Positions 5,486 through 52,020 of a DNA stretch of 64,000 bases are shown in pieces. How positions within the stretch are numbered: the stretch's first letter is position 1; every line of letters starts with the position of its first letter. The stretch spans positions 300,738 to 364,737 of the forward strand of contig NZ_CM001557.1 in NCBI RefSeq assembly GCF_000273375.1, read 5' to 3'. Origin of the DNA: Bartonella birtlesii IBS 325 (GTDB lineage Bacteria > Pseudomonadota > Alphaproteobacteria > Rhizobiales > Rhizobiaceae). A program made the position numbers and the translations under genes. The notes under the pieces were generated by a model. That model saw only the letters and a list, made by a program, of their open reading frames with translations, ran no database searches and was not told the DNA's origin.

Positions 5486-5728
5486 ACAGGCTTCTCTTAC
5501 AACACCTTATCAGACAAGACTACATCAAGAAAGCAGAGGCACAAAAAGCCATAGAATAAAGAAAGCCGGATATGTTTGCACAGTAAGCAAACAATAAGCC
5601 TCTGATCTTAATGCTTGCAAGATAAGACAAAATATAATTAGCAAAAGCAAGCAAAGAAGCAGGAATGATATTCTTTGCCTTTAAAGAAGTAAAATCCCCA
5701 AAAAATCTTTACGCAAATTTTTAAAAAG
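5486..5728 (+). pseudogene. Decayed second copy of the Sel1-repeat gene 3' end
   Basis: The DNA behind the Sel1-repeat gene resembles the last 240 bases of that gene. Matching pieces in the same order are CAGGCTTCTCTTAC (gene: CAGGTTTCTCTTGC), GCACAGTAAGCA (gene: GCACAGCAAGCA), CCTCTGATCTT (gene: CCCCTGATCTT), AAGCAAGCAAAGAAGC (gene: AAGCACGCAAAGAAGC) and a final ACGCAAATTTTTAA (gene: ACGATTTTTTAA). Indels and stops have closed the frame. The simplest reading is an old tandem duplication that has been decaying since. From 5729 to the efp start at 6019 I see no further gene. Confidence 0.7.
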
Positions 5729-6018
5729 CTTGCGTCTGAACACTTTTTATGGTCTTGCAAAGAATTGAAAAGCAACAATCTTACAAAAGCTTTTCTTGCG
5801 GTACTGATCTAGACTTCTTTCTCTGCAAAAACCATGAGAAAGCTCCCCTAGACAGGGTAAGAGCAATATAATAGAGCATGCCACAAAGATCATAAGAAAG
5901 CCCACCTAAAACCACAAGGGGGCAAAAACAACAAAAGAGTACGCAACCAAGGATAACAAAGGATCGTTAGGGAAACAAACAGAGAGCTCTTTTGCAGGCA
6001 TAGAATTGGATAGAAACG

Positions 6019-6591
6019 ATGAAAATTAATGGCAATGAAATTCGCCCTGGGAATGTAATTGAACATCAAGGCAGCTTATGGGTTGCTGTAAAATGCAACG
6101 CTGTAAAACCAGGAAAAGGTGGTGCATTCAACCAAGTTGAAATGAAAAATTTGCTCGATGGTACAAAACTCAATGAACGCTTTCGTGCGGCTGAAACGGT
6201 AGAGCGGGTACGCCTTGAACAAAAAGATTTTACCTTTCTTTATCAACAAGGTGATGCTCTTGTTTTTATGGATTCAGAATCTTATGAACAATTGGAATTG
6301 CAAAAGGATTTTGTTGGTGAACGCGCTGCTTTCTTGCAAGATGGGATGACAGTGACCGTTGAACTCTATCAAGAAAAGCCTATTGGTATATCACTTCCTG
6401 ATCAGGTCACTGTAGCAATTGCTGAAGCAGATCCTGCCATCAAAGGGCAAACCGTCACATCTTCTTATAAACCTGCTATTCTTGAAAATGGTATTCGCAT
6501 CCTTGTACCACCTTTTATCAATACCGGTGAGCGTGTCATTGTCGACACCAACGAATTGACTTATTTGCGTCGTGCGAGTGATAAAGGATAA
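6019..6591 (+). CDS. efp: Elongation factor P
   Basis: This encodes EF-P (190 residues), a tRNA-shaped translation factor that binds between the ribosomal P and E sites and rescues ribosomes stalled on consecutive prolines. The N-terminal KOW-like domain contains the loop [12 protein letters not shown]; the lysine at residue 33 is the position that is modified by lysylation in many bacteria. Two OB-type domains follow, ending with the conserved stretch TGERVIVDT. The length is normal for the family. It sits 15 bases upstream of the inositol monophosphatase gene and probably shares its transcript. Confidence 0.97.
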
Positions 6592-6606
6592 ATAAAGGAA
6601 GAAAAT

Positions 6607-7398
6607 ATGGCCCATTCTGCAATCATGAATGTCATGGTGCAAGCTGTAATGAAAGCTGGACGCTCACTCGTGCGTGATTACGGTGAAGTGCAAAATTTGC
6701 AAGTGTCTTTGAAAGGGCCAGCCGATTATGTAAGCCAAGCAGATCGCAAAGCCGAAAAGATTATTTTCAATGAATTAAGCAAAGCACGACCAAAATTCGG
6801 TTTTCTCATGGAAGAGTCTGAAGAAATCATTGGAGAAGATTCACAACATCGTTTCATTATCGATCCTTTAGATGGCACAACAAATTTTCTCCATGGCATT
6901 CCTTTTTTTGCAGTTTCCATTGCCTTAGAAAGACAAGGAAAAATCGTTGCTGGTGTGATTTATAATCCCGTGAATGATGAGTTATTTACCGCTGAACGCG
7001 GTGGGGGTGCTTTTTTTAATGACCGGCGCTGTCGCGTTTCTGCACGACGCAAATTGGAAGATTGTGTCATTGCAACGGGCATGCCGCATTTTGGTCGTCC
7101 AAATCATGGCGCATATCTTATCGAATTGCGCAATGTCATGGCTGAAGTTGCTGGTCTGCGCCGTTTTGGCGCTGCCGCCCTTGATTTGGCTTATGTCGCG
7201 GCTGGCCGAACAGATGGCTTTTGGGAAGACAATCTGCAAATTTGGGATATAGCTGCTGGAATACTGATGGTTCGCGAAGCCGGTGGTTTTGTCACAGATA
7301 AAGAAGGTGGTAGCGATATATTTCGCAAAAAAAATATCATCGCTGGCAATGAACTTATTCGCATGAAATTAGAAAAAACCCTCAAAAAAGGCATTTGA
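6607..7398 (+). CDS. suhB: Inositol monophosphatase family protein
   Basis: This is a 263-residue member of the inositol monophosphatase/SuhB family. The Mg-binding residues are visible: Glu70 in the MEESEE segment, the IDPLDGTTNF motif with Asp86 and Asp89, and the second signature WDIAAGILMVREAGG near residue 214. Such enzymes hydrolyse inositol-1-phosphate and related sugar phosphates; in E. coli SuhB also takes part in rRNA transcription antitermination. The start ATG 6607 has an AAGGAAG site. The gene is likely cotranscribed with efp. The substrate in this organism cannot be fixed from sequence. Confidence 0.93.
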   Translation: MAHSAIMNVMVQAVMKAGRSLVRDYGEVQNLQVSLKGPADYVSQADRKAEKIIFNELSKARPKFGFLMEESEEIIGEDSQHRFIIDPLDGTTNFLHGIPFFAVSIALERQGKIVAGVIYNPVNDELFTAERGGGAFFNDRRCRVSARRKLEDCVIATGMPHFGRPNHGAYLIELRNVMAEVAGLRRFGAAALDLAYVAAGRTDGFWEDNLQIWDIAAGILMVREAGGFVTDKEGGSDIFRKKNIIAGNELIRMKLEKTLKKGI

Positions 7399-7486
7399 GA
7401 AAAAGAAGTAAGGCTGTAAACGCTGCCTTCAGTTTTCTCAAGACCAATAACGATAATTCGTATAATGCTGATTTTATACCAATTCC

Positions 7487-9275
7487 TTATTCAGGTGAGA
7501 ATTGGAGTTTTGCCAAATATGCATAAACCCCATTTTTTGCCACAAGTTCTGCATGGGTTCCTTCTTCAACAAGAGCGCCTTTATCCATCACGAGAATACG
7601 ATCAGCTTTTAAAATTGTTGCCAAACGGTGTGCAATCACCAGTGTTGTACGATTTTGCATCAATCCTTCCAAAGCGTCTTGCACTAACTTTTCACTATTT
7701 GCATCTAAAGCAGATGTTGCCTCATCAAGCAGCAACAAGGGCGCATTTCTTAAAATCGCACGTGCAATACCAATGCGTTGTTTTTGTCCACCAGAAAGCA
7801 TAGTACCACGTTCCCCTACTTGTGTATCAAAGCCGTTTGGTAAAGCTTCAATAAATTCAAGTGCGTTGGCTGCTTTAGCTGCAGCAATAATTTCCTCTTC
7901 ATTGCTCTTTTCTGTACCAAAAGTAATATTATCGCGCAGCGTGCCATCAAAGATAGCGACATCTTGTGGAACATAAGAGATTGCACTGCGTAAATCTTGC
8001 AGAGAAAGGCGATTAATCTCCACGCCATCAAAGCGAATTTGACCACTTGTCGGATCATAAAAACGAAGGATCAAAGAAAAAATGGTGCTTTTTCCTGCAC
8101 CAGAAGCGCCAACAAAAGCAACCGTTTCACCTTCTTTGATAGAAAAAGAAAGAGAACGCAAAATCTTCTCCTGTGGTCTAGAAGGATAAGTAAAATCAAC
8201 CTGATCAAAAACAAGTGCACCACGGACAGGTTGTGCCAACGGTAAAGGATTTTGAGGAACTAAAATTGTAGGTTTTTCTTGCAACAATTCGGCCAATCGT
8301 TCAGCAGCACCCACTGCTTGGATTAATTCTGCACCCAATTCCGATAATTGCGCAAAAGTTGAGGCTCCAAAAACGGCATAGAGAACAAATTGACCTAAGG
8401 TTCCCGCTGTCATGGTGCCATTCAAAACATCTCGAGAGCCAATCCATAAAACAGTAACCACACTACTAAAAACCAAAAAATTGCAAAACCGGTAAAAAGG
8501 AACGCAAGATCACAGAAGCACGGGCTGTTTGAAAAGCGCGTTCAACCAACTGTGCAAAACGTGTCGCAATAAGTTTTTCAGCGGTAAAGGCTTGCACCGT
8601 GCGAATGGCGCTTACTTGTTCGGTTGCCAAAGCATTGGCATCTGCAAGACGATCTTGCGCCGCGCGAGTGCGTGTACGAACCTTGCGCCCAAAAACAACT
8701 AATGGAATAGCCACAAAGGGGATAGCAAGCAGCACCAGTGCAGATAATTTAGCATTGGTGATAACCATCATCACAATTGCGCCAATCACCACAATCAGAT
8801 GACGCAAAGCCGTAGAAGCAGTTGAGCCAACAGCTAGTTTTATCTGTGTTGTATCGGTAAGGAGCCGCGACACAAGTTCGCCAGAATGGGACTTATCAAA
8901 AAAAGCAGGCGAAAGTCTCATAATATGGACAAAAACATCACACCGTAAATCGGCAACGATCCGTTCTCCCAAAGTGATGACACAATAATAACGGCAAGAC
9001 GAAGCAAGCGCAAGTAGCAAAGCTAAAGCGAACAAAATAAAGAAATAAAAATTGATGTGACCATGGCTTGAAGTGGAAAAACCATGATCAAACATTTTGC
9101 CGATAGCAACAGGCAAAGCCAGTGTGATAAGAGCAGCAACAGATAAAGCGACAAAAGCAAAGATAAACAACCAGCGATAACGCACAAGATAAGGACCGAA
9201 AGTTTTAAGCGAAGAGAATGAAGATTTTTTTGCTGAAGACTCGGTAGATTTTTCTGAATGATAGAGGAGATTCAT
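7487..9275 (-). pseudogene. ABC exporter (MsbA/lipid-A-exporter type), split by a frameshift
   Basis: Two adjoining frames together make one half-transporter with fused membrane and ATPase domains. The upstream part (9275 to 8466, 269 residues) carries the first membrane segments of an ABC type-1 exporter, for example FIFAFVALSVAALITLALPV. The downstream part (8476 to 7487) begins inside the last membrane region and contains the ATPase domain: Walker A GASGAGKST, signature LSGGQKQR, Walker B LLLLDEATS and the H-loop AHRLAT. The family would read RSFL-TGFAIF-LVFSS across the joint. To recover that, two single bases have to be restored, one near 8493 and one in the A6 run at 8475-8480 (T6 on the coding strand). 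Either the gene is inactive or the homopolymer was misread. Confidence 0.85.
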
Positions 9276-9463
9276 AAGGTTTCGCTCACTATATTAGGTT
9301 GTCTATAACACTTGATGTCATGATATATCTTGAACACTTGTTTTTTTATGCGTGCTCAGTTATAGAAGGGCTACTTTAATCAATTTATCAAAAAGACAAA
9401 AGAAGTGCACTGAAAAAAGTGAAAAAGTGCTATTTTGTTCTGTAAACGTAAAAGGTTTAACGC

Positions 9464-9685
9464 ATGAAAGCGAATATTCATCCCGACTATCATAAAATCA
9501 CTGTCGTTATGACGGATGGTAGCCAATATACAACGCGCTCTACTTGGGGAAAAGAAGGGGATATCCTTAATCTGGATATTGATCCAAGAACCCATCCAGC
9601 GTGGACAGGTGGCTCTCAAACACTTGTAGACCGTGGTGGTCGTGTTTCTAAATTTAAAAATCGTTTTGGTAATCTTGGCATGTAA
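9464..9685 (+). CDS. rpmE: 50S ribosomal protein bL31
   Basis: This encodes bL31 (73 residues), a large-subunit protein that bridges to the small subunit. The start [19 protein letters not shown] and the motif THPAWTGG are characteristic. The protein lacks the CxxC zinc-binding pair, so it is of the zinc-independent type usual in alphaproteobacteria. The gene is divergent from the broken ABC exporter and has its own upstream region. Confidence 0.97.
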
Positions 9686-9755
9686 CGGCCTCTTTAGGGT
9701 TGTAAAAAGCACAAAAACTCCAATAAAGTTATTGAAACATTGAAAACAATGTGTT

Positions 9756-9785
9756 GCCCCACTGTAAAGGAGGGCTTTTTGTTTG
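9756..9785 (+). terminator. Weak rho-independent terminator of rpmE
   Basis: A short GCCC/GGGC stem (9756-9759 with 9772-9775) is followed directly by TTTTTGTTTG. The stem is only four pairs, so this is a modest candidate lying 70 bases behind rpmE. Confidence 0.4.
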
Positions 9786-9805
9786 TTGAAAAAATAACAA
9801 CGGAT

Positions 9806-9843
9806 AAGGCTTCTTTAAATCACCATAATATAAAGAAAGCCTT
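9806..9843. repeat. Inverted repeat hairpin
   Basis: The arms AAGGCTTCTTTA (9806-9817) and TAAAGAAAGCCTT (9831-9843) pair over 12 bases with one bulged base, around a 13-base loop. It lies between rpmE and the fba remnant and has no T-run on the + strand. Confidence 0.5.
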
Positions 9844-9920
9844 AAGCCTCCGCCTATAAAACAAAAAAGGCTAAAACAGTAAAATAATCTGTAACCTCAG
9901 AAAAACGCAACGCTTCAATA

Positions 9921-9950
9921 ATTGGCATAACACCAATTGGCATAACACCT
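9921..9950. repeat. 15-bp tandem repeat, two units
   Basis: The unit ATTGGCATAACACC plus one base occurs twice in direct succession (9921-9935 and 9936-9950), differing only in the last base. It lies just ahead of the fba remnant. Confidence 0.75.
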
Positions 9951-9989
9951 GCGCTCCTCAGCAAAGCAGCAAAGAGGTAAAAATTTATG

Positions 9990-10230
9990 CATTTTTTCTC
10001 CTCTTATTGGCAGTATGTACGCCTCCATAGCAATCACCTAACAACCATTGAGCAAAACGCGCTGCCAAAGCAGCGTTGCCACTAAATGCCCACACAAAGA
10101 AACCCGCCCCTATATTTGCAACCCCCAATGTTGCTATCACCTGTGACACTTGAAACGATTCACGAAAAGCGTTCTTAAACCTTTCTCGTAACAGTTCCCA
10201 CCCACACACCACCCCCGCTTGCGACGAGCA
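9990..10230 (-). pseudogene. Decayed second copy of an internal part of fba
   Basis: This stretch lies downstream of the aldolase gene and resembles the gene's own codons for about residues 100-150. The minus-strand DNA GCGCGTTTTGCTCAATGG corresponds to GCACGTTTTGCTAAATGG in the gene (peptides ALAARFAQW and ALGARFAKW). The following CATACTGCCAATAAGAGG corresponds to CACTCTGCCAACAAGG in the gene, and AAAAAATGCA to GGCAAAATGCA. Upstream, GAACTGTTACGAGAAAGG parallels GGGTTGCGTGAGCGG. About 90 extra bases separate the last two blocks. A 90-codon frame happens to remain open here, but it begins and ends inside the remnant and I do not regard it as a gene. Confidence 0.55.
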
Positions 10231-10443
10231 AACCAATGGTTTTGATTGATTCAACATAAAAGAAACTTGAGATGAGAGAATCTAAAATATTCAGATCTCT
10301 CATTCAACATGCAAAATAATTAATGAATTGTCTTTATAAATCCATGCCCTATAAATTCATATCTTGTGAATTACATCCCTGTTCAACAACGGGCATACCC
10401 CCCACTTGCTCATACAAATCTGTGTCCATAAAACCCACTGTTT

Positions 10444-11487
10444 TTAAGCAAAAGATTGTTCATGCTCTTTTGTCCATTGCCCCAAAGCGGCCAAATGGTT
10501 CATGCGAGCACGATGATGAAAAGCTTTTTGAGCAACAGCAATATTATCATGTCTGCCAGCCCATGCCTTCAAAGCCGCCGCTTGCAACGCCCGCCCATAA
10601 GAAAAGGTCAATTTCCAAGGCAATGTTCCCAAAGCATTCCCCAAAGCATTCATAGCAGACAAATGCGCCGTTGCCTCTTCATCAGATTGCCCTCCAGAAA
10701 GGAAAGCAATTCCTGGAACAGCGGCCGGCACAGTCTGTTTAAGCACCTGAACTGTCTTTTCCGCCACCTCTTCAACAGAGGCTTTGCGTGCATCTTTTCC
10801 GTCAATCACCATATTAGGCTTTAAAATCATCCCCTCGAAAATAACACGCGCTTCAAACAATTCTTGAAATACCGCGGTTAAAACAGCCTGTGTCACCTCA
10901 AAGCAGCGCACAATCGAATGCGCGCGCGAAGTTCCATCCATCAGCACTTCCGGTTCAACAATAGGCACAATTTTGAGCTCTTGGCACAAAGCAGCATAAC
11001 GCGCAAGAGCCTGTGCATTTTGCCTAATCGCCCCCCTTGTTGGCAGAGTGTGTGCATCAATGGCAATTACCGCACGCCATTTAGCAAAACGTGCTCCCAG
11101 GGCATAATAGTCTTTTAACCGCTCACGCAACCCATCTAATCCCTCTGTAATTGTTTCGCAAGGAAAAGCCGCCAAGGATTTAGCACCAGTATCAACTTTA
11201 ATTCCTGGCAAAGCCCCCGCCTCACGGATAAGATCTGTCAACATTTTCCCAGATGCTGCCTTTTGACGAATGGTTTCATCAAATAAAATGACACCAGAAA
11301 TAGCACTTTCCATAGCTTCTTTTGCACTAAAAAGCATTTCACGATAAGCACGGCGATTATCCTCATGACATTCCACCCCAATGCTTTCAAAACGCTTGCC
11401 AATTGTTGCAGTACTTTCATCGGCTGCCAAAATACCCTTACCCGCACGCACCAGAGCAAATGCTATATCTTCAAGACGTTCATTCAT
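10444..11487 (-). CDS. fba: Fructose-bisphosphate aldolase class I
   Basis: This encodes a class I aldolase of 347 residues, which splits fructose-1,6-bisphosphate into dihydroxyacetone phosphate and glyceraldehyde-3-phosphate without a metal. Family blocks are AGKGILAADESTATIGKRF at the start, KVDTGAK, the Schiff-base stretch GMILKPNMV with its lysine, FLSGGQSDEEAT, and TFSYGRALQ near the end. ATG 11487 is preceded by AGAGGAA at a good distance, so it is preferred over an upstream start at 11520. It follows pgk and gap on the same strand, so the three glycolytic/gluconeogenic genes probably act and are expressed together. A decayed piece of the gene lies downstream at 9990-10230. Confidence 0.95.
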   Translation of the reverse strand: MNERLEDIAFALVRAGKGILAADESTATIGKRFESIGVECHEDNRRAYREMLFSAKEAMESAISGVILFDETIRQKAASGKMLTDLIREAGALPGIKVDTGAKSLAAFPCETITEGLDGLRERLKDYYALGARFAKWRAVIAIDAHTLPTRGAIRQNAQALARYAALCQELKIVPIVEPEVLMDGTSRAHSIVRCFEVTQAVLTAVFQELFEARVIFEGMILKPNMVIDGKDARKASVEEVAEKTVQVLKQTVPAAVPGIAFLSGGQSDEEATAHLSAMNALGNALGTLPWKLTFSYGRALQAAALKAWAGRHDNIAVAQKAFHHRARMNHLAALGQWTKEHEQSFA

Positions 11488-11596
11488 AAAAAATTCCTCT
11501 TTATTTTGTCTTATTTCCAAAACGAAGCGATATGATCATCACACTTCACAGTACTCAGAGCCTACAGCTTTTTAAACTTTCCTTTCAAAGGGAGCC

Positions 11597-12790: not shown

Positions 12791-13211
12791 AACTGTTCTC
12801 TCTTCACTTTCTGTTGTTTCAAACAAAATACAACACCTCGCTTATACATCGTAGGCAATTCCTCAAAGAAAGCCAACCCGTATCCTCTCACGCATGAGAC
12901 AAAACACCTCAACCAAAACCCAACCATCTTTCCACGCAAACTCTTTTGCTTAAAAGCAAAAAACAAATACGCGGCCGTATTTTCTCAAACTTTGTTTCGT
13001 TCAAAAGCACACTCTTGCAAATTCTATTCTTTCATGAGGTTAAAAAAACACACATCCCCACAATACACAACACACCATCATGCAGGCACAGCAGCTTTTA
13101 TCCAGCTACGTAAAGAGCAATCTCTAGGTGTTTTTTTCAAACAAAATGCGTTTTTATTTTTCATCATAAAACTTAACTTTTCAATATAAAAAAGGACCCG
13201 AAGGCCCTCAT
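12791..13211. other. pgk-gap intergenic region
   Basis: These 420 bases contain the gap terminator at the right end and presumably the pgk promoter. A long plus-strand open frame that crosses this region (12593-13189) is mostly antisense to pgk, is Lys/His/Thr-rich without a domain, and is rejected as a gene. I see nothing else. Confidence 0.4.
13187..13208 (-). terminator. Rho-independent terminator of gap
   Basis: Read on the minus strand, AGGGCC-TTCG-GGTCCT forms a six-pair stem with one G-T pair, capped by the very stable TTCG tetraloop, followed by a run of T. It lies just behind the gap stop codon. Confidence 0.85.
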
Positions 13212-14219
13212 TTAGAGTGTTTTTGCAAAAGCCACTGCCGTATCACTCATGCGGTTTGAAAAACCCCATTCATTATCATACCACACCAAAACACGACAAA
13301 GCTGACCGTCGATGACCTTTGTTTGATCATTATGGAAAACGCCTGAATGCGGATTATGATTAAAATCACAACTCACAAGCTTTTCCTCTGTATAATCCAA
13401 AACTCCCTTAAGTGAACCTCGCGCAGCAGTACAAATGGCGCTATTAATTTCTTCAACCGTTGTGGAACGCTTAGCGGTAAATGTCAAATCCACCACAGAA
13501 ACATTTGGGGTTGGAACACGAATTGACACCCCATCGAGCAACCCTTTTAATTCTGGCAAAACCAGCCCGACAGCCTTCGCCGCCCCCGTTGAAGTAGGAA
13601 TCATAGAAAGAGCCGCAGCACGTGCCCGATACAGATCACGATGCATGGTATCCAATACCGGTTGATCACCCGTATAAGAATGGATTGTAGTCATAAAGCC
13701 CTTTTCAATACCCACCGTTTGATGCAAAACCTGCGCAACAGGCGCTAAACAATTGGTTGTACAAGAAGCATTAGAAACAACCCTATGCTCTTTGCTCAAA
13801 GACTGGTGATTCACCCCATAAACCACGGTAAGATCTGCACCCTCAGAGGGAGCAGAAACCAGAACACGCTTTGCCCCCGCATCCAAGTGAACACTCGCTT
13901 TATCACGTGCTGTAAAAATTCCGGTACATTCTAAAGCAATATCGATATCCAAAGCTTTCCATGGCAATTTTGCTGGATCACGCTCTGCCAATACCTTTAT
14001 CAAATTGCCCTCAACATCAATGGCATCACCCACCACCTTCACATAACCTGGAAAACGCCCATGAACAGAATCATAGCGCAACAAATGGGCATTGGTTTCC
14101 ACCGCTCCCAAATCATTAACAGCCACAACTTCAATATCGTGTCGTCCACTCTCCACAATGGCACGCAAAATATTGCGACCAATACGACCAAACCCATTAA
14201 TTGCAACGCGAACCGTCAT
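13212..14219 (-). CDS. gap: Glyceraldehyde-3-phosphate dehydrogenase
   Basis: This encodes GAPDH (335 residues), which oxidises glyceraldehyde-3-phosphate to 1,3-bisphosphoglycerate with NAD(P). The Rossmann start [17 protein letters not shown] and the catalytic block [11 protein letters not shown] with Cys153 are intact, as is the C-terminal [12 protein letters not shown]. Transketolase lies upstream and pgk and fba downstream, all on the same strand, so this is a central-carbon cluster. A small decayed copy of the first codons of the gene lies directly upstream (14252-14336). Confidence 0.97.
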
Positions 14220-14220
14220 T

Positions 14221-14340
14221 TTATATCCTCATCGTTTTTAAGCACAACCTCTGGGTATTCGCTTCCACCAACCCCAAATCATCAACCCCTTCTTTACAGT
14301 TGAACAGAAAATATTGTAGCCAATATGACCAGCCCCTTTC
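14221..14340 (-). pseudogene. Decayed copies of tkt 3' end and gap 5' end
   Basis: Between the gap start and the tkt stop, plus-strand TTATATCCTCATCGTTTTTA (from 14221) resembles the tkt end TTATTTTTCCTCATTGATTT (14355 onward). Next to it, TGGGTATTCGCTTCCACC and CCCAAATCATCAAC (from 14253) resemble TGGGCATTGGTTTCCACC and CCCAAATCATTAAC inside gap (14086 onward), and AAAATATTGTAGCCAATATGACCA resembles the gap stretch AAAATATTGCGACCAATACG. The order real gap 5', tkt 3' remnant, gap 5' remnant, real tkt 3' is exactly that left by a tandem duplication across the junction, followed by decay. Confidence 0.65.
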
Positions 14341-14357
14341 TTTGTAAAGCACAAGAG

Positions 14358-16959: not shown

Positions 16960-16972
16960 AAGGTTTGGATAT

Positions 16973-17619: not shown

Positions 17620-17985
17620 TTTTTCTTCCCACACAAGGTACAGCCCTAAACCAAAGCCAAGCGCTATGTTGTTTACACGATAGCTGATAAAGCAATAATA
17701 TCTGTTCGGGATCTCCCGTAAAATACACATACCCCGAATACCTAAAGCAGTGTACAACGATAGCAGCTAGCAACTGCTCCAATATTCTGTCGCACAAGTG
17801 AGAAAAATAGCATCAGTTCCCGTTAACTCTAGAAAAAGATTACCCTCATCTAAACAACATAAATTTGATGTTATCCGATGTAGGGAACAATAAGACCTCT
17901 CATCAACACACCTTCTTCAAAACAAAGAACAGAAGCAGATTCAGCAGACAACACCACAGCATCACAACAGCAGCACTGAACGCAT
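17620..17985 (-). pseudogene. Decayed second copy of pyk (C-terminal part)
   Basis: Downstream of pyk, plus-strand blocks repeat the gene in order. AAACCAAAGCCAAGCGC occurs both here (17650) and in pyk (18291). GCAGTGTACAACGATAGC parallels GCAGTGTAAGCAACGATAGC, GCATCAGTTCCCGTTAACT parallels GCATCCGTTCCCGTTGACT, and AGATTCAGCAGACAACACC parallels GGATTCAGCAGACAACATC. The copy spans roughly codons 260-420 of pyk but is shortened and full of indels and stops. Flanks 17351-17619 and 17986-18086 hold no gene that I can see; 6S RNA, expected near zapA, was not recognised. Confidence 0.8.
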
Positions 17986-18086
17986 AAATAATTGTATGAG
18001 CATCAAAAACCCATGCCTATCTCAAACGACAAACAAACACAATGTCATAGTCAAAACATAAAAAACACCATACTGAAACGTTTCTG

Positions 18087-19523
18087 TTAAAGCCCCTTTG
18101 TTCCATCTTGAGAAACCGTAGCAATACGCAAGAGATTTGTCGCACCAGGCGTGCCAAGAGGCACACCTGCTGTTACAAGAAATTGATCTCCTGCTTGGCA
18201 AAAACCTTCTCGAAAAGTAATTGCTGCCGCACGATCAACCATATCCTCCAAATCGCGTGCATCATCGGTTACCACACAATGCAGCCCCCAAACCAAAGCC
18301 AAGCGCCGTGCTGTCTGCACAATAGGTGATAAGGCAATAATGGGTCTGTTTGGGCGCTCGCGTGAGGCACGCACACCCGTGGTTCCTGAAGCAGTGTAAG
18401 CAACGATAGCTGCTAATGCAAGTGTTTCAGCAATCTGTCGTGCCGCCAAAGAAATGGCATCCGTTCCCGTTGACTGAGGTGCAGGATGCGCAGCTCCAAC
18501 CTGAGCCGCATAGGTGCGATCTTGTTCGATATACCGAGCAATGCGATCCATCATCAATACAGCCTCTTCAGGATAAAGACCAGAAGCGGATTCAGCAGAC
18601 AACATCACAGCATCACTGCCCGCATACACCGCTGTAGCAACATCAGAAACTTCTGCGCGTGTTGGAACAGAAGAAGTAATCATAGATTCGAGCATTTGTG
18701 TTGCTACCACCACTGGTTTCCCGGCTAAACGACAGGCCTTGATCAATTCTATCTGAAGTGCAGGAATCTTTTCCAAGGGCATTTCCACACCAAGATCTCC
18801 CCGTGCAATCATAATAGCATCAGAGACATCAATAATCTTTTCTATGTGCTCTAAAGCTTGAGGCTTTTCGATTTTAGCCATCAACAACACTTTATTTTTC
18901 GTCAATTGGCGCACCGCGACAATATCTTCTGGACATTGAATAAAAGAAAGTGCCACCCAATCCACAGGTTGTTGCAAAACAGCCTGAAGATCAATCTTAT
19001 CCTTTTGTGTCATCGAACCAAAAGGCAAAATGGTATCGGGAAAACTCACACCTTTTCGATCAGAAATATGGGTTCCAGCAACCACACGGCACTCAACCAA
19101 ATGGCCATCACACAGCTGTGCACGTAGTTCCAACTTTCCATCATCGATCAACAGCCGATCTCCTGGTTTCACAGCCGCTAACACATCCTTATGGGGAAAA
19201 TAAACCCGCTGAGCATCACCTGGCACATCACGATCATCCAAGGTAAAGCTTTGACCAATATGCAAATCCTCTTGCCCTTTAGCAAAATGCCCAATACGCA
19301 ATTTTGGTCCTTGTAAATCCACCAAGATACCGATGGGGCGTTGAACGATTTTTTCAACCTCCCGTATATGCGCGATCACATCCCTCATTGTTTCACAGTC
19401 GGTATGGCTCATATTCAAACGAAAAACATCTGCCCCTGCTCTAAACAGCTTTTCAATCATCTCAAGGGAAAAAGAAGAAGGACCAAGAGTAGCAATAATT
19501 TTTACTTTACGGGCACGCTTCAA
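18087..19523 (-). CDS. pyk: Pyruvate kinase
   Basis: This encodes pyruvate kinase (478 residues), which makes pyruvate and ATP from phosphoenolpyruvate and ADP. Conserved blocks are ATLGPSS and RLNMSHTD near the start, the MIARGDLGVEMP active-site segment, VVATQMLESMI and the TRAEVSDVATAVYAGSD block. The start appears to be TTG at 19523, which overlaps the stop of the upstream DUF1036 gene (TTGA), indicating translational coupling. A decayed partial copy lies immediately downstream (17620-17985). Confidence 0.96.
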   Translation of the reverse strand: MKRARKVKIIATLGPSSFSLEMIEKLFRAGADVFRLNMSHTDCETMRDVIAHIREVEKIVQRPIGILVDLQGPKLRIGHFAKGQEDLHIGQSFTLDDRDVPGDAQRVYFPHKDVLAAVKPGDRLLIDDGKLELRAQLCDGHLVECRVVAGTHISDRKGVSFPDTILPFGSMTQKDKIDLQAVLQQPVDWVALSFIQCPEDIVAVRQLTKNKVLLMAKIEKPQALEHIEKIIDVSDAIMIARGDLGVEMPLEKIPALQIELIKACRLAGKPVVVATQMLESMITSSVPTRAEVSDVATAVYAGSDAVMLSAESASGLYPEEAVLMMDRIARYIEQDRTYAAQVGAAHPAPQSTGTDAISLAARQIAETLALAAIVAYTASGTTGVRASRERPNRPIIALSPIVQTARRLALVWGLHCVVTDDARDLEDMVDRAAAITFREGFCQAGDQFLVTAGVPLGTPGATNLLRIATVSQDGTKGL

Positions 19524-30235: not shown

Positions 30236-30272
30236 CTTTGCTTTTTTTTAAAAAAAGCAAAGTATTTTTTGT
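30236..30272 (+). terminator. Rho-independent terminator behind fdxA
   Basis: CTTTGCTTTTTTT and AAAAAAAGCAAAG form an almost perfect 13-pair stem with a minimal loop, followed by TATTTTTTG. Because it is near-palindromic it could act in both directions. It lies between fdxA and carD. Confidence 0.65.
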
Positions 30273-31001: not shown

Positions 31002-31040
31002 CATAAAATAAAATCGGCAACATGTCGGTTTTATTTTATG
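31002..31040 (+). terminator. Strong hairpin behind carD
   Basis: CATAAAATAAAATCG (31002-31016) pairs with CGGTTTTATTTTATG (31026-31040) over 15 positions with one G-T pair, 14 bases behind the carD stop. The right arm is itself T-rich, so it probably terminates carD transcription, though a separate T-run is lacking. Confidence 0.6.
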
Positions 31041-31485
31041 CTATCAGGCTTTTTGTGAAAAAAATATTTGGTAAAAATTTCACCAAATATTTCCACCTTA
31101 ATGTTACGTGATCGAAATAAGTACAGTCTAAGTATTATTGCAATTTTATGCTTCCAAGAAAAGATTGATATCTTATCATCTTATGTCTTCAACCTCTTTA
31201 TTACAAAAAGAGTTTTCTAAAAGACTTACTTACTAACTACGAAAGAAGAGTATTTCACGACATTCTCTCAACAAACGATACAGCACAGACAAAGCATAGA
31301 GAAGAGATCAACTTATCTCTCAAGATAACAAGACAATCTCACTTCACCACACGAGAAGAAAACTTTGCATTTCAACATTTCCATGAAGAAAAATAAGTAA
31401 AAATCACACAGGAATCGCGTACATGCTCACGCCCAAATGCATATATTAAAAAGAGACCTTATCACTTCATAAAAAGAGAAAATAC
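31041..31485. other. carD-rpmF intergenic region
   Basis: I see no gene, RNA or clear repeat in these 445 bases. Both flanking genes end here, so selection is probably weak. Confidence 0.4.
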
Positions 31486-35503: not shown

Positions 35504-36520
35504 CTACCCTCCAGAGTCGGCACGCTGTGAAGTATCTACATATGTAACAACAGACATACCAGGAATGAGCTTTTCAACCCCTTCCTGTCCAGGATCTATT
35601 GCAATACGCACTGAAATACGTTGGGCAATTTTAATAAAATTGCCCATTGTTGTATCTGTTTTTAACAAAGAAAATTCTGAACCTGTTGCAGGCGCGAATC
35701 GAACCACACGCCCTTTTAATTTCTTATTGTTCAATGCATCAACAGAAAAAATAACCGGTTGCCCAACACGCATTTGAAAAAGCTGTGTTTCCTTGTAATT
35801 GGCAATAATCCAAATATCATCAGAAATGACAGAGACCAATTGCGTACCAGGCAAAACATATTGCCCTACCCGCGCACCAACCAGCCCAACATACCCTGTT
35901 TTAGGAGATAAAATCTTGGTATGATCCAGATTAAGTTTAGCCAATTCAACACTAACCTTTGCGCTCGCCACCTCTGACTGTAAACTTTGTCGTTCAAGAT
36001 CCAACTGCTTTTGCAATTGGCGTTTTGTTTCAAGCGCCGCCAACAATTGTGGGAGAGGGCGAAAAACAGAACTGGAAGTATCAGTAAAACTCAGCTTTTT
36101 GTTTTCAGGAAGAACATTGGAAAATGCTTTTGAGCGCGCTAATTCTGCTTCTGCAGCATTAACTTCTCCCTGTAAAATCTGAGCTTGCAACACAACACTT
36201 GCAAGTTTTGCATTTTTTGAATCAAGAACAGCCTGTGCTCGTGCCAACTGTTGGCGAAACAAGGCATCATCGAGTTCAAACAAGAGCATTCCCTTTTCAA
36301 CGCGTTGATAATCTTGCACATAAATTCGTGAAACCACACCTGAAATTTGTGAACTAACCAAAGTCACATTGCCTTTAATGGAAGCATTATCGGTTATTTG
36401 AATGGTACTAACAAAAGGAGGCAACCTCCACGCCCATAAAATCAGCAAAATACCAGTAATACCTGCAAGGAATGCAATAAGCGTTGCTCTCGATCGTAAT
36501 GCTTTTATCACTTTTTGCAC
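35504..36520 (-). CDS. emrA: HlyD/EmrA-family membrane fusion protein
   Basis: This encodes a periplasmic adaptor (338 residues) with one N-terminal membrane anchor (LIAFLAGITGILLILWAW), two lipoyl half-motifs around a long coiled-coil hairpin, and the beta-barrel region IWIIANYKETQLFQMRVGQP. The block VTLVSSQISGVVSRIYVQDYQ and DHTKILSPKTGYVG are family hallmarks of EmrA. Such adaptors join an MFS or ABC pump to an outer-membrane channel and export toxic compounds. It overlaps the end of the pump gene upstream by 13 bases. Since that pump is frameshifted, the adaptor may have lost its partner. Confidence 0.9.
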   Translation of the reverse strand: MQKVIKALRSRATLIAFLAGITGILLILWAWRLPPFVSTIQITDNASIKGNVTLVSSQISGVVSRIYVQDYQRVEKGMLLFELDDALFRQQLARAQAVLDSKNAKLASVVLQAQILQGEVNAAEAELARSKAFSNVLPENKKLSFTDTSSSVFRPLPQLLAALETKRQLQKQLDLERQSLQSEVASAKVSVELAKLNLDHTKILSPKTGYVGLVGARVGQYVLPGTQLVSVISDDIWIIANYKETQLFQMRVGQPVIFSVDALNNKKLKGRVVRFAPATGSEFSLLKTDTTMGNFIKIAQRISVRIAIDPGQEGVEKLIPGMSVVTYVDTSQRADSGG

Positions 36521-38683: not shown

Positions 38684-40300
<1,617 letters not shown>

Positions 40301-40313
40301 TTACCTTTTCAAT

Positions 40314-41225: not shown

Positions 41226-41246
41226 TTAAGCATTCCATCACTTCCA

Positions 41247-46108: not shown

Positions 46109-46189
46109 CTTTTATCTCAAATTTTATATGAACTTCTCTATCGCAGATTTTTTTATAAAGGATCTCTTGCTGATCTTATCATTCTAGCC

Positions 46190-46369
46190 CTACCAATCAC
46201 CCCTTAACCGCTGTACCACCCACCACAAAATCATAAAAAAGCTACAGCTCCCGCAAAGAGTTATACCTCCTCCATAGCGGATAAAGATCAAAAACGATAA
46301 GCCCATACAGAAAAAAACACCCCAATAGAAGTAATTTTCCCCTCTGTTACATATTCTATTATTTTCCAC
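46190..46369 (-). CDS. Possible small membrane protein, 59 residues
   Basis: A GTG-started minus-strand frame of 59 codons encodes two hydrophobic stretches, YFYWGVFFCMGLSFLIFI and LCGSCSFFMILWWVVQRL, and ends GDW. The first 13 residues are polar, which fits a small two-pass membrane protein. It lies 81 bases upstream of priA on the same strand. No clear ribosome site precedes the GTG, and I do not recognise a family. It may be real, a fragment of a larger membrane protein or chance. Confidence 0.3.
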   Translation of the reverse strand: MENNRICNRGENYFYWGVFFCMGLSFLIFIRYGGGITLCGSCSFFMILWWVVQRLRGDW

Positions 46370-46827
46370 AGCAACTTTATATCAGCCCTTTTATAAAACC
46401 AGTATTTTCATCTTTAATATTTTCGCAGTAATATTTTCGCAGTAATATTTTCATAGACAACCTTTTGGATGTAGAAAATGATTGATCCAATTTATTTCAT
46501 TCTAATTTCCCAAACCTTTTCACACGCCCCCATTATTGATAAACATATCAAACAAGCAACTTCATCCTCTATAAAAAATGGAACTCTATAATTATTAAGC
46601 ATTGCATAAAAAACACTAAGCGCTAGCAGCCATTTCCCATATTTATTCTCCCTGCGCCTATTTTTCTTATCCAACAGCGAATTTTTTCCCCTTGCCGATT
46701 TATGCTATTGCCTATTCTGTAAGATTGCCACACGCCCTCTTGCTTTTGCCATAAACAATAGCGCATAACAAAAACAAGTTACAACATGAGAGACTTTGAA
46801 TAAAAAGCACAACCAAGGAGATGAGAG
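46370..46827. other. Intergenic region upstream of the transaldolase gene
   Basis: No supported gene is present. A TTG-started minus-strand frame of 60 codons (46492-46674) is moderately hydrophobic, LLALSVFYAMLNNY, but has no ribosome site. The short tandem repeat at 46416 is described separately. AAGGAG just before 46828 is the ribosome site of the next gene. Confidence 0.35.
46416..46456. repeat. 14-bp tandem repeat, about 2.9 units
   Basis: AATATTTTCGCAGT occurs twice in direct succession (46416-46429 and 46430-46443), followed by a diverged third unit AATATTTTCATAG. Confidence 0.85.
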
Positions 46828-47481
46828 ATGAAATTTTTTGTGGACAGCGCCAATATTGAAGAAATCCGAGAATTACAAAATTTAAATCTCGTTGATGGTG
46901 TGACCACCAACCCCTCACTCATCTTAAAATCAGGACGCAATATTCTTGAAGTGACAAAAGAAATTTGTAGCCTTGTTAATGGACCTGTTTCTGCCGAAGT
47001 TGCAGCAACAAAATTTGAAGATATGATGAAAGAAGCAGCTGTTTTAGCAAAAATTGCCGACAATATCTGTATCAAGCTTCCCTTAACATTTGATGGATTA
47101 AAAGCCTGTAAAGCCCTGACAGCAAAAGGATTAAAAACCAATCTCACCCTCTGTTTTTCTGCCAATCAAGCTGTATTAGCTGCCAAAGCAGGCGCAACAT
47201 TTGTTTCACCATTTGTTGGCAGAATCGACGATTGTGGAAGTGATGGCATTGCACTGTTGCATGAAATCCGCACAATTTATGACAACTACAACTTTGCAAC
47301 GCGAATTTTGGCAGCTTCCATTCGTACCGTTAATCATGTCAAAGAAGCAGCATTAAGTGGTGCAGATGTTGCAACCATTCCACCGGCAATCTTAAAAGCA
47401 CTGGTGAGCCATCCTCTAACCGATAAAGGGTTACAAATCTTCCTCGAAGATTGGAAAAAAACCGGACAAAATATCGTTTAA
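46828..47481 (+). CDS. tal: Transaldolase, TalC/Fsa-type small form
   Basis: This encodes a small transaldolase (217 residues) of the MipB/TalC family. It moves a three-carbon unit between sugar phosphates in the pentose phosphate pathway; close relatives instead cleave fructose-6-phosphate. The family start [25 protein letters not shown], and NICIKLPLT with the Schiff-base lysine Lys83 are intact. AAGGAG precedes the ATG. With tkt elsewhere in the window it completes the non-oxidative branch. A decayed copy of its 3' end lies at 47660-47757. Confidence 0.94.
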
Positions 47482-47645
47482 TATTTTGCAAGAACTCAAA
47501 ACAACACAAAAATCTGTACCGATAAGTTCTCTAACCACATGCTCTCGCGCGTCTTTTCCATAATATATTCTTGAATAACAACCATACATAAAGACGCGCT
47601 CATGGTCCTCATGCTCTTAGAGCTCCGTCGCAAACATTTCCCCAT
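47482..47645 (-). pseudogene. Decayed copy of the lptE 3' end
   Basis: Plus-strand DNA right behind the transaldolase stop matches the end of lptE, about 270 bases further right. The matches in order are AATCTGTACCGATAAGTTC (lptE: AATCTGTTCGGCTAATTC), CCACATGCTCTCGCGCGTCTT (lptE: CCACACGCTTCCGCGCATCTT; here only partly quoted), and AAGACGCGCTCATGGTCC (lptE: AAGACGCGCTCACAGTTCC). Stops and indels close the frame. It is the first half of a duplicated tal-lptE junction. Confidence 0.8.
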
Positions 47646-47659
47646 ACTGTCTCTCAAAC

Positions 47660-47757
47660 TTATCCCATCAGCAATCTTAGAAACGCTGATGAGCTGCCTC
47701 ACCGATTAAAGGATACAAACCTTGACCAAAACGATTGATCAAAAAACTATTTAATGT
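47660..47757 (+). pseudogene. Decayed copy of the transaldolase 3' end
   Basis: CCATCAGCAATCTTAG, CTGATGAGC, CTCACCGATTAAAGGATAC and a final TATTTAATGTTTTG run parallel to CCACCGGCAATCTTAA, CTGGTGAGC, CTAACCGATAAAGGGTTAC and CGTTTAATATTTTG at the end of the transaldolase gene. Its last bases overlap the stop codon of lptE. Together with the lptE remnant just before it, this is the second half of a duplicated junction. Confidence 0.85.
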
Positions 47758-48341
47758 TTTGTCAAATCTCTTGAAAGCAACATGAGAATCTGTTCGGCTA
47801 ATTCCTCAGCCACACGCTTCCGCGCATCTTCTTCTGCTTGCATTGTTGCATACTCTTGGCGCAACCGTTCAAAAGACGCGCTCACAGTTCCCATACCGTC
47901 AGCAACAGGCATATTTTTCATATCCTGCAAGATATAGGAAGCTTTTCCCACCACAGTTCCAACAGAAGGTCGCCCCTCCTTTTTCCTATCGAGATCAACC
48001 TCGATCTGTACAGAGCTCCTTGTAAACAGAGATGTTTGCAATGTTAATTGATAAGCTGGAGAAGCTACTTTACTGCCATTTCCGTACAGAAGAAATAACA
48101 GATGATTACGCACCATTTGCCCAAAACGATCTGAAGGCTCTGCAACAACAATGGAAGCTAGTTTTTCGGAAAGATTCAAAGATTTTTGTTTTGAAGACGA
48201 ATCATCAAAAACAGAATCTACAGAACCTATTGTTGTCGAAATCCCAGATGCGTGATGATAAAGCGGTTCAACTATACATCCACACAAAAGCGTGGACAAA
48301 CCAGCTAAGCCCACAAGAACAAAATTTTTAAACAACGACAT
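47751..48341 (-). CDS. lptE: LPS-assembly lipoprotein LptE
   Basis: This encodes an outer-membrane lipoprotein of 196 residues that acts as a plug in the LptD barrel and helps insert lipopolysaccharide. The signal peptide ends LLCGC, a good lipobox. The mature part shows the LptE/RlpB pattern [20 protein letters not shown] and a C-terminal helix rich in Glu and Arg. It overlaps the end of leuS by 14 bases, the usual alphaproteobacterial order leuS-lptE. Its 3' end takes part in an old tandem duplication with the transaldolase gene. Confidence 0.88.
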
Positions 48342-50970
48342 TCACAATCCTTTTTGGAACAATAATTATTTTTTTTACCGATTTCTCGCCCAAATGCGCC
48401 TTTACAAAATCAAGAGCTAGAACAGTTTCTTCAATCATCGCTACAGTTGCCGTTGCTGCCACAGTAACCTCACCGCGCTTTTTACCATTAATCTGTACCG
48501 GCAAAATATAGGAATCTTCAACAATTAATGCGGTATCATAAACAGGCCAGGCAAGCTCACAAATCAAATTTTTTCCTCCCAAAACAGCATGACACTCCTC
48601 TGCCAAATGCGGCATGATAGGTGCAATCATAGCAAGGAAAAAATCCACTGCTTGGCGCAAAGCTGCCTTCATTTCATCCTCAACATCTGCTACCTTATTT
48701 AACAAAGGTGCCATAATATTCAAAAATTCATAAAGGCGTGCAATTGCCCGATTAAAAGCAAATTTTTCCAAATCATCTTCCACGGCATAGAGTGTTCGAT
48801 GCGTCACTTTTGAGAGTTCCAAAGCCGCCCCCTGGTGCCCAGCACGGGGTGCCACTTCTCTTAACAGTGGAGCACTCAAAGCCACATGGCGCCAAACACG
48901 TTGCACAAAACGATGCGCTCCTTCAACACCCGATTCGGTCCAAATAACATCTCGCTCAGGAGGAGAATCGGACAAAACAAACCAGCGCACAGTATCGGCT
49001 CCATAGGAGGCAATAATATCATCAGGATCCACGACATTCTTTTTTGATTTGGACATTTTTTCAATCAAACCAATCGTCACCTCGCTTTGATCGGTTAATT
49101 TATAAGCCTGCCGCTTTCCATCCTTTTCAACAATAGTAATTTCTGCTGGAGAAACCCACCCCTGATCATCCCGATAAGTTTCATGCACCACCATACCCTG
49201 GGTAAACAGCCCCTTAAAAGGCTCGTCGATCTTCACATAACCCAACAATTTCATGGCACGCATAAAAAAGCGCGCATAAAGAAGATGAAGAATGGCATGC
49301 TCAATTCCGCCTATATATTGTTGCACGGGCAACCATTCCTCTGTCGCTTGGCAATCAACAGGTTCCTGTGCAAAAGGAGCAGTAAAACGGGCATAATACC
49401 AAGAAGAGTCCACAAAAGTATCCATAGTATCGGTTTCGCGTTTGGCAGTCTTTCCACAAACAGGACAAGCAACAGTTTGCCATGTTTCATGACGCGCAAG
49501 AGGATTTCCAGGCTGATCAAAAGTGACATCATCGGGCAACACAACAGGCAAATCAGCACGCGGAACAGGAACCACCCCACAAGATGTACAATGGATAATT
49601 GGGATAGGGCACCCCCAATAACGTTGACGCGAAATCCCCCAATCACGCAAGCGAAATTGCACAGTCTTTTTTCCCTGTGGCTGCCCCCCAAATATTTGCT
49701 CCTCAAGCCTTTTAGCTGCTGCTTCAAAAGCTTGTTGCGGTGTCAAGCCATCCAAAAAGCTGGAATTGATCATCACGCCATCACCAACATAAGCTGTTTC
49801 AGCAATCACAAAATCTTCCCTCTCAACCCCCTTTGGCAAAACCACCGGTCGCACGGGAAGATCATATTTACGTGCAAAATCCAAATCTCTCTGATCATGG
49901 GCAGGACAGCCAAAAACAGCCCCCGTTCCATAGTCCATCAACACAAAATTAGCAATATAAACAGGAATATGCACCGCCACATCAAAGGGATGAACAGCCA
50001 AAAGCGATGTACGAAATCCTTGCTTTTCAGCGGTTTCAAGTGCCTCAGTTGTTGTTCCACCACTCCGACAACTCTCGACAAAAACCTCCAGCTCCTTATC
50101 TTTCTTTGCAAGAGCCTGGGCAATGGGATGATCAACAGACAGCGCCAAAAAGGAAGCGCCAAACAGCGTATCAGGTCGTGTTGAATAACAGACAACCTCA
50201 CGAAATTCTTCACAAACCTCATCGGCTCCTTCTATGGATTTCAAAGCCCAACGAATCAAGAGTCCCTGCGATTTACCGATCCAATTTTTTTGCATAATGC
50301 GGACTTTTTCGGGCCACTGTTCAAGTTCTTCAAGCCCTGCCAGTAAATCTTCACCAAAGTCACTAATTTTGAAAAACCACTGGGTCAATTCCCGCTGTTC
50401 AACCAACGCACCAGAACGCCAACCCCGTCCATCAACAACCTGTTCATTTGCCAAAACCGTGTGGTCAACGGGGTCCCAATTCACCTTAGCCACTTTGCGC
50501 GCCACCAACCCCTTTTGATAAAAATCAAGAAACAGCATTTGCTGGCGATGATAATAATCCACATCACAAGTCGCAAATTCCCGTGTCCAATCTAGTGAGA
50601 GCCCTAATTGCTTTAATTGCCCACGCATCACAGCAATATTTTGATAAGTCCAAGTTTTGGGATGCACCTTATTTTGCATAGCAGCATTTTCAGCCGGCAT
50701 ACCAAAAGCATCCCACCCCATAGGATGGAGCACATTAAAGCCCTTTGCACGTTTATAGCGTGCAACAACATCTCCCATAGCATAATTACGCACATGCCCC
50801 ATATGAATACGCCCTGAGGGATAAGGAAACATTTCCAAAACATAATATTTTTCACGTCCATCTTCTTGGGCAGTCTGAAAAATCTTTTTTTCATCCCAAA
50901 TCTTTTGCCATTTTTGTTCACGGGCATGTGGATTATAGCGTTCACCTATATTATAACGTTCAATCGTCAT
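48328..50970 (-). CDS. leuS: Leucyl-tRNA synthetase
   Basis: This encodes leucyl-tRNA synthetase (880 residues), a class I enzyme that charges tRNA-Leu. The HIGH-type motif is HMGH at 56-59 within [15 protein letters not shown], and the second motif is [14 protein letters not shown]. The CP1 editing domain, with [12 protein letters not shown] and the [16 protein letters not shown] block, is present. The start ATG 50970 gives the usual N-terminus. lptE follows in overlap. Confidence 0.97.
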
Positions 50971-51124
50971 TTCTATGATACTCTTTTACAAAATTGAACT
51001 AAAAAATGTTTTATTATGCTTGACCATGGATTAACCTCATCGTCAATATTTTCCATAAATATTTCATGAAGTATTTTACAAATAACAACGCAATCACTAA
51101 ATTAAAGAGACAAAGTACGAAAAT

Positions 51125-51826
51125 ATGAACACACACACCAACCCATCCGATCTTTCCCCCGATCCTTCCATTAACGCATGGCAAAATCTACAAAAAGACA
51201 TTATTGAAACATGTAAAGAATACCACCGCCCTCCAGAAAAGGTACAACTGATTGCTGTTTCAAAAACCGTTTCCATAGAGAATATACGCCCTCTTTTACA
51301 AGCAGGTCAAACTGTCTTTGCAGAAAACCGCGTGCAAGAAGCCGCGAAAAAATGGCCTGATTTGCGTCAACAGTTTGAAAATATTGAACTTCATCTTATT
51401 GGTCCTTTACAATCGAACAAAACAGCACAGGCCATCAAAATTTTTGATGTCATTCAAACAGTTGATCGTGAAAAAATAGCAAAAAGCTTAGCCGAAGAAA
51501 TGCAAAAACAACAAAAACATCTCCCTTGCTACGTTCAAGTCAATATTGGTTTAGAATCGCAAAAAACTGGCATTTCACCGCAAGAAGTGGTCCCTTTTGT
51601 TGCCCAGTGTAAAAATCACTATGGACTTGACATAATTGGTTTAATGGCCATTCCCCCCATACAAGAGAATCCCGGACCCTATTTTGCCTTGCTAGCCAAA
51701 CTAGCAAAACAAGCCGATCTCCCAAAGCTTTCCATGGGCATGTCCAATGATTTTAAAACAGCTCTACAATTTGGTTCGAATGTTCTTCGCATTGGCTCTG
51801 CTTTATTTGGAAAACGTCCTGTGTAA
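51125..51826 (+). CDS. yggS: YggS-family PLP homeostasis protein
   Basis: This encodes a 233-residue pyridoxal-phosphate-binding protein of the YggS/PROSC family, which buffers cellular PLP without a known enzymatic reaction. The PLP lysine is Lys47 in LIAVSKTVS; further blocks are FAENRVQEAAKKWPDL, HLIGPLQSNK and SMGMSNDFKTAL near the end. The gene is divergent from leuS. A decayed copy of its 3' end follows at about 51865-52020. Confidence 0.94.
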   Translation: MNTHTNPSDLSPDPSINAWQNLQKDIIETCKEYHRPPEKVQLIAVSKTVSIENIRPLLQAGQTVFAENRVQEAAKKWPDLRQQFENIELHLIGPLQSNKTAQAIKIFDVIQTVDREKIAKSLAEEMQKQQKHLPCYVQVNIGLESQKTGISPQEVVPFVAQCKNHYGLDIIGLMAIPPIQENPGPYFALLAKLAKQADLPKLSMGMSNDFKTALQFGSNVLRIGSALFGKRPV

Positions 51827-51864
51827 AGCAATTTCTTCTCATGCCAATTCATTCCCCCTTTAAT

Positions 51865-52020
51865 ATAAATTCATTCCCATTAAAAAATCTACCAAAAGCC
51901 AAAAACAACAAACATGAGAAAAAAAGCTAAGCTTCCAAAACTCTTCACCAACATGTACAATAACTTCAAAACAGCCCTGCAATTTTTTTCTCATATTTTC
52001 ATACTTTGATTTTACCTTGC
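51865..52020 (+). pseudogene. Decayed copy of the yggS 3' end
   Basis: CTTCCAAAACTCTTCACC, ATGTACAATAACTTCAAAAC and AGCCCTGCAATTT follow in the order of the gene's CTCCCAAAGCTTTCCATG, ATGTCCAATGATTTTAAAAC and AGCTCTACAATTT. Further right the match weakens through CATATTTTCATACTTTG. Upstream, CCAAAAGCCAAAAACAAC parallels the CTAGCAAAACAAGCC stretch. The frame is closed by stops. It is a partial second copy in the same orientation about 190 bases behind the original. Confidence 0.7.

Follow-up and report, generated by a model that had tools for sequence, protein, structure and literature searches.

Decayed partial copies of genes lie beside their intact sources, on the same strand, in a 64,000-nucleotide stretch of the Bartonella birtlesii IBS 325 chromosome, and such copies are concentrated around the phage-derived run-off replication origin (ROR) of that chromosome. 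The stretch (hereafter the window; positions 300738–364737 of contig C1) belongs to a genome of 1.83 Mb in a single contig, here termed G000. Most of its genes with an assigned family are housekeeping genes, and its pyruvate kinase is 87% identical to the Bartonella senegalensis counterpart. To judge from the sequence, the pieces appear to be partial tandem duplications; young cases are arranged head to tail, the copies decay neutrally, and the same gene ends have been duplicated recurrently. The explanation that we hold to be probable is that over-replication at ROR makes short tandem duplications more frequent, the copies then decaying neutrally.

A sequence-only reading of the window had named six places where spacer DNA resembles an adjacent gene, and had proposed shuffled sequence and random non-adjacent genes as controls. 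We compared 26 spacers of at least 60 bp with their flanking genes (52 comparisons, 400 dinucleotide shuffles per spacer); the gene calls underlying the spacer scans came from our own script. Smith-Waterman (SW) scores reached p < 1e-3 in 7/52 comparisons in the direct orientation and in 0/52 when inverted; at p < 0.02 the counts were 10/52 and 2/52. With non-adjacent genes, a mean of 0.00 of 28 spacers reached the threshold of the scan. All six places have significant same-strand similarity to the adjacent gene (sel1, fba, gap, pyk, tal together with lptE, and yggS), although the tkt half of what had been called gap/tkt was unconvincing (best match 21 bp, p = 1.6e-3). Same-strand copies that lie near their sources and exceed the controls are what remnants of tandem duplication should leave. 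The window count is itself a selected one, as the finding was what picked the window. When the window was aligned to itself with blastn, five of the ten matches listed were the pyk, sel1, tal/lptE, fba and yggS pairs (ranks 1, 2, 3, 5 and 9), the others being four palindromes and one repeat within a gene. The statement that such copies fill the intergenic space was too strong; they occupy 829 of the 16,960 bp of spacer in the window (4.9%).

The 3' part of pyk (gene nucleotides 908–1255; 18269–18616, minus strand) recurs on the same strand at 17626–17965 as a copy that is 72% identical, carries indels and stops, and is offset by 643–651 bp (SW score 197, p below the floor of the fit). In B. 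senegalensis (L002), an overlapping pyk duplication has an offset of 643. The 3' part of sel1 (5312–5459, plus strand) has a decayed copy at 5537–5675 on the plus strand, 225 bp away (score 88, p = 3.3e-16; 71% by blastn), seen both as a blastn self-match and in the shuffle test. The same two approaches identify a decayed copy of an internal part of fba, downstream of the gene (source 11033–11099, copy 10000–10067, both on the minus strand; offset 1033; score 49, p = 7.7e-7). The shuffle test alone yields the decayed copy of the yggS 3' part (source 51697–51772, copy 51909–51985, both on the plus strand; offset 212; score 45, p = 6.7e-6) and a short decayed copy, 46 bp long, of the 5' part of gap, which lies upstream of the gene and is the weakest of the set (source 14075–14120, copy 14241–14286, both on the minus strand; offset 166; score 37, p = 5.5e-5).

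The arrangement of tal and lptE points to tandem duplication. These genes are convergent, and the spacer between them holds a 3' piece of each. The 3' end of tal (47377–47462, plus strand) has its decayed copy at 47662–47747 on the plus strand, at an offset of 285 (score 49, p = 1.7e-7; shuffle test), and the 3' end of lptE (47757–47884, minus strand) has its own at 47484–47602 on the minus strand, at an offset of 273 (score 48, p = 3.5e-7; self-match and shuffle test). A single head-to-tail unit covering both gene ends predicts pieces at nearly equal offsets, and blastn merges the two matches into one (47377–47555 with 47662–47830). Elsewhere, four young cases (pyk in G001, fba in G062 and G072, and lptE in G051) give overlapping self-alignments, as in a head-to-tail array; that arrangement can be resolved in tal/lptE and in the young cases but not in most old pairs. 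Within the ROR zone of four genomes, described below, 38 matches have a median offset of 356 bp and a median identity of 0.77. At the G072 fba locus (L262), the head-to-tail fba 3' units include two additional copies whose open frames are 206 amino acids long, and these could get annotated as genes.

The copies are dead and decay neutrally, as is evident from stops, frameshifts and near-equal change at the three codon positions. Six genes, examined in 153 gene-locus combinations, gave 45 gene-copy pairs (fba 11/30, lptE 4/30, yggS 5/30, suhB 15/30, pyk 8/21 and sel1 2/12), the loci being the best 30 of 60 or 61 matched genomes or, for pyk, same-genus genomes (24 of the 40 relatives searched belong to the genus), a choice that leans towards close relatives. 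With the pairs ranked in age classes, oldest first, mismatch rates at codon positions 1/2/3 were 0.24/0.21/0.26, 0.16/0.13/0.19, 0.047/0.048/0.078 and 0.008/0.013/0.025, compared with 0.107/0.063/0.329 between orthologous genes. When changes were polarised with the nearest ortholog, 313/295/276 fell on the copy branch and 26/18/117 on the gene branch; the slight third-position rise in the young classes is to be expected, because the gene branch contributes chiefly third-position changes. These near-equal copy-branch rates argue against a functional donor cassette kept by selection. Inefficient deletion, which the sequence-only reading had assumed, agrees with the balance of small insertions and deletions: within their aligned parts, the copies that survive show no bias towards deletion (100 deletions totalling 186 bp versus 116 insertions totalling 299 bp), a comparison confined to aligned DNA, since large deletions end an alignment and go unseen.

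We located ROR and the Bartonella gene transfer agent (BaGTA) in G000 by homology. Portal and terminase genes lie at 212–215 kb (a Terminase_6N search of G000 gave no match, and the terminase was found with other models), the exonuclease gene at 239.6–240.2 kb, and a primase/helicase gene at 242.8–246.5 kb, with a DUF1376 gene standing where the O-like gene would be. Two further exonuclease-family genes lie elsewhere in G000, and ROR was assigned to the exonuclease gene that neighbours the helicase and portal clusters. GC content at third codon positions (GC3) and the local repeat-pair count peak together at 210–250 kb, where these clusters sit. The portal gene (L313:2287–4161) and the O-like gene (L314:12692–14005) of ROR/BaGTA clusters each have a decayed 3' copy in their own adjacent spacer.

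Spacers that contain a copy are concentrated in the zone within 220 kb of ROR: 14/105 in G000, versus 1/146 beyond that distance (p = 3e-5). The zone count leaves out spacers shorter than 80 bp (347), longer than 4000 bp (8) or with masked bases (2). Pooling G000 with G013, G072 and the near part of G051 gave 36/219 near (16.4%) and 14/388 far (3.6%), a difference of about 4.6-fold (p = 1e-7), with three inverted matches near and none far; without G051 the counts were 29/192 and 14/388 (p = 2e-6). In neighbouring stretches of G000, fetched after the window test, 9/58 spacers carry a copy, two of the nine being adjacent spacers of one small-gene array in L317, versus 1/167 in the 20 stretches first sampled (p = 2e-5). 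The process is thus not genome-wide in G000, as the sequence-only reading had supposed. The window lies about 58–122 kb from ROR, on the side of the chromosomal origin (ori), and this position accounts for the many copies visible in it. We placed ori near 475 kb from the GC skew of the samples. In three genomes, copies were found in 24/161 spacers between ROR and ori, 7/42 beyond ROR, 0/47 within 220 kb beyond ori and 12/330 elsewhere. The zone extends to both sides of ROR but not past ori, and the empty class beyond ori argues against ori as its centre. Even inside the zone, detectable copies amount to 3.6% of spacer DNA; they are not a large share of it and do not explain the low coding density, as had been suggested. 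In G021, which has no match to the ROR exonuclease, 2/171 spacers carry a copy (one genome, of another lineage). Outside the clade, the counts were 4/169 spacers, with one inverted match, in other-family Rhizobiales (16 stretches of one genome and 4 of three others) and 0/18 in one 50-kb stretch of E. coli K-12.

Duplication has been recurrent. The ends of fba, pyk, suhB, lptE and yggS were each duplicated more than once among Bartonella species, with differing break points in a single gene (near nucleotides 1131, 1190 and 907 of pyk, at 377–830 of fba, and near 102, 500 and 655 of suhB). Some events are old: the suhB-655 copies of four genomes are 0.84–0.88 alike to one another and 0.74–0.77 to their own genes, which places the duplication before the species splits, and in the yggS-541 group, too, copies of different species are mostly closer to each other than to their own genes. 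Others appear to have been refreshed. The pyk-1131 copies of G001 and G011 have almost identical junction sequences, yet their identities to their own genes are 0.98 and 0.79, respectively, and the suhB copy of G072 is 0.986 identical to its own gene over 281 bp, its flanks just outside this core being strongly decayed by eye. Gene conversion from the intact gene would be the simplest reading, with a new duplication conceivable case by case. The proposal that degrees of similarity record ages consequently failed, as some copies with a shared junction match their own gene at about 98% in one species and at 79–87% in others; because some appear to have been refreshed later, identity gives a minimum age at best. 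What stands of the earlier interpretation is short tandem duplication that includes gene ends, neutral decay and a spread of ages.

Extra protein-level matches beside the query gene were found for fba in 15/61 genomes of the genus, 12 of which have them adjoining the gene within a single contig (G048, G050 and G070 have the pieces on other contigs or an incomplete gene). For other genes of the zone the counts were 2/61 for lptE, 1/61 for yggS and 0/61 for EF-P (60 with a match), and for far genes 0/61 for rluC, 0/61 for pyrC and 0/61 for tgt (60 with a match), setting aside distant paralogs and a two-piece gene in G041. The contrast between zone and far genes in these matches thus rests mainly on fba. 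The tRNA-guanine transglycosylase gene, tgt, is represented in G016 and G067 by stop-broken pieces only and by an unbroken single match in the other 58. Of the 34 genomes that resemble G000 most by lptE, 14 have extra fba matches, versus 1 of the 27 others (p = 7e-4), and several of these 27 carry the ROR exonuclease despite the rarity of extra matches. Of 80 pyk loci, 79 were tested, and only that of B. senegalensis reached a score of at least 50 downstream (78; the next were 41, 40 and 38); the other Bartonella locus, L003, has no local direct repeat.

We propose that tandem duplications, mostly of a few hundred bp, would keep one intact copy per gene, and that a unit running from inside a gene to past its end would leave the full gene in front and a headless 3' piece in the spacer. 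Repeated firing of ROR could produce extra forks, broken ends and extra sister copies, with which duplications would arise or become fixed several times more often near ROR. The gene transfer agent may perhaps move such DNA between cells, and the intact gene may sometimes overwrite copies again. We infer the mode of junction formation, and likewise the causal role of over-replication, the latter from a correlation seen in three to four genomes, all belonging to a single clade. On a broader formulation we are evenly divided: a domesticated phage origin may act as a local duplication generator over some 400 kb, its repeated run-off firing constantly seeding short tandem duplications. How densely dead gene ends lie would then preserve, like a fossil record, the places and the strength of past firing, part of which gene conversion by the intact copy would keep resetting.

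Several observations weigh against this explanation. ROR is presumed active in B. birtlesii by homology, and one stretch far away, at 1,570 kb, likewise has a high GC3 (0.33). ROR is not sufficient, as G004, G022, G016 and G049 carry the exonuclease and have a single fba match each. The 220-kb cut was chosen post hoc, although it comes close to half the length of the plastic zone of 461 kb that PMC2697382 reports for B. grahamii; rank tests without a cut gave p = 4e-5 (G000), 0.043 (G013) and 0.029 (G072). Taken singly, G013 and G072 yield p = 0.029 and 0.027 with all spacers and 0.21 and 0.38 with spacers of at least 300 bp, and their far regions contain copies (7/122 and 6/120); adhesin-type genes account for two of the far copies scanned, and metabolic, other or family-less genes for the rest. 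The controls are raised in G051, where 27 spacers gave 2 inverted matches and a mean of 1.5 non-adjacent ones versus 7 direct, one of the seven being only 19 bp. An effect of head-on forks was not seen, with copies at 15/86 co-oriented and 11/109 head-on gene 3' ends (p = 0.14). The zone also differs in other respects, in its imported genes and long spacers. Near ROR in the four genomes, pieces from 3' ends are about four times as common as those from 5' ends (30/221 versus 8/217 gene ends; 29 and 8 at a length of at least 40 bp), which is not predicted by tandem duplication without selection, where numbers should be about equal. Finally, a surplus of direct repeats alone is nothing special. 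In 464 kb of G000 (the window and 20 stretches), local repeats 50–2500 bp apart with at least 41 bits were direct in 31 cases, 9 of which pair a gene with a spacer, and inverted in none; the ratio is 19:0 in G021 and 27:1 in other-family genomes, where gene-spacer pairs are rare (0 and 2).

The same tandem duplication and neutral decay could operate with the zone rich in copies through weak selection or deletion, on account of long spacers and islands, rather than through ROR. We think this unlikely but worth serious attention. Spacers in the zone do tend to be somewhat longer (by distance class, the medians are 385–544 bp within 220 kb, and 492 and 316 bp beyond), and the loss of significance in G013 and G072 singly once short spacers are dropped is what such an account expects. 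Yet the surplus persists among spacers of at least 300 bp, both in the pool (28/149 near versus 13/212 far, p = 3e-4; without G051 22/126 versus 13/212, p = 1.5e-3) and in G000 (13/72 versus 1/66, p = 1e-3). Young copies (identity of at least 0.85, at least 40 bp) are enriched as well, at 10/219 versus 1/388 (7/192 versus 1/388 without G051, p = 2e-3); this suggests that more copies form there, not that they last longer, although homogenisation might also make copies look young.

Alternatively, homologous fragments that had diverged before arrival could have been imported, for example by the gene transfer agent, and joined beside the resident gene. BaGTA-like portal and terminase genes do lie within the zone, and 16 of the 27 pairs below 90% identity score higher with another species' gene, with one more tied. 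In all 18 pairs of at least 90% identity, though, the own gene is the best match, and the suhB-655 and most yggS-541 copies are nearer each other than their own genes, as inherited decaying copies should be. The differences are also not dominated by third positions, which rules out diverged working copies as the main source; a minority could have come in this way, and as a general account we regard import as improbable. The 3' surplus would suit integrative elements that insert at gene 3' ends with a replacement end and are later deleted, an account to which we give very little credence: start points within the gene vary widely (nucleotides 377–830 of fba), 5' copies and the double-end tal/lptE unit exist (no integrase search was made in these spacers), and the overlapping self-alignments of the young cases indicate head-to-tail junctions with nothing between. 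That the similarities are due to chance or low-complexity sequence is hardly credible; single matches are short (46–86 bp), but neither the shuffled, the inverted nor the non-adjacent controls support chance for the seven matches in the window.

In mitochondrial tandem duplication-random loss, adjacent remnants are left as whole genes are lost and gene order changes; remnants are likewise adjacent here, but the functional gene keeps its place. The G000 cluster resembles the Bartonella ROR, BaGTA and high plasticity zone described in excerpts of PMC2697382 and PMC3610622 in its grouping of exonuclease, primase/helicase, portal and terminase genes, in a GC3 peak at the cluster (reported for ROR in PMC3610622) and in a zone of a few hundred kb that extends towards ori. 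PMC3610622 also reports that in B. bacilliformis this segment is inverted across ori. Those excerpts cover islands, secretion systems, GC content and synteny; they mention no concentration of partial tandem copies from the ends of housekeeping genes, the feature added here. PMC2697382 lists 236 pseudogene sequences in Bartonella, mostly remnants of full-length genes, so that remnants are already annotated; their adjacency, tandem origin, neutral decay and link to ROR are the additions. Spontaneous duplications are likewise frequent in growing Salmonella, where the junctions that were confirmed have short direct repeats, about 10 bp or longer (PMC3411829, in part). A recombination survey of B. 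henselae addressed the same question, the mutational imprint of the amplified region, and its excerpted text reports a minor rise in synonymous substitution in that species' amplified region only (PMC3483213); the imprint seen here consists of duplications. As excerpted, PMC2697382, PMC3610622, PMC6044324, PMC3483213, PMC3428342 and PMC3411829 thus already describe remnants, islands, amplification and tandem duplication of host-interaction genes. In the open-licence literature as excerpted, no account was found of an ROR-linked zone where the ends of housekeeping genes recur as partial tandem copies; older B. henselae work in subscription journals lies outside this scope.

The excerpt of PMC3483213 leaves open whether run-off replication makes a lasting mark on the Bartonella chromosome. 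If the association with ROR is causal, past over-replication could be read from sequence alone, the zone would offer a natural test of whether extra replication raises bacterial duplication rates, and a source would be identified for a small part of spacer DNA. In practice, extra 3' pieces such as those of fba can pass for genes and may break assemblies. Among other features of the window, the four palindromes lie at 30236–30262, 31002–31040 and 31062–31092, all in spacers, and at 35622–35646, inside an hlyD-like gene, and a gene for a type ISP restriction-modification enzyme occupies 57815–62773.

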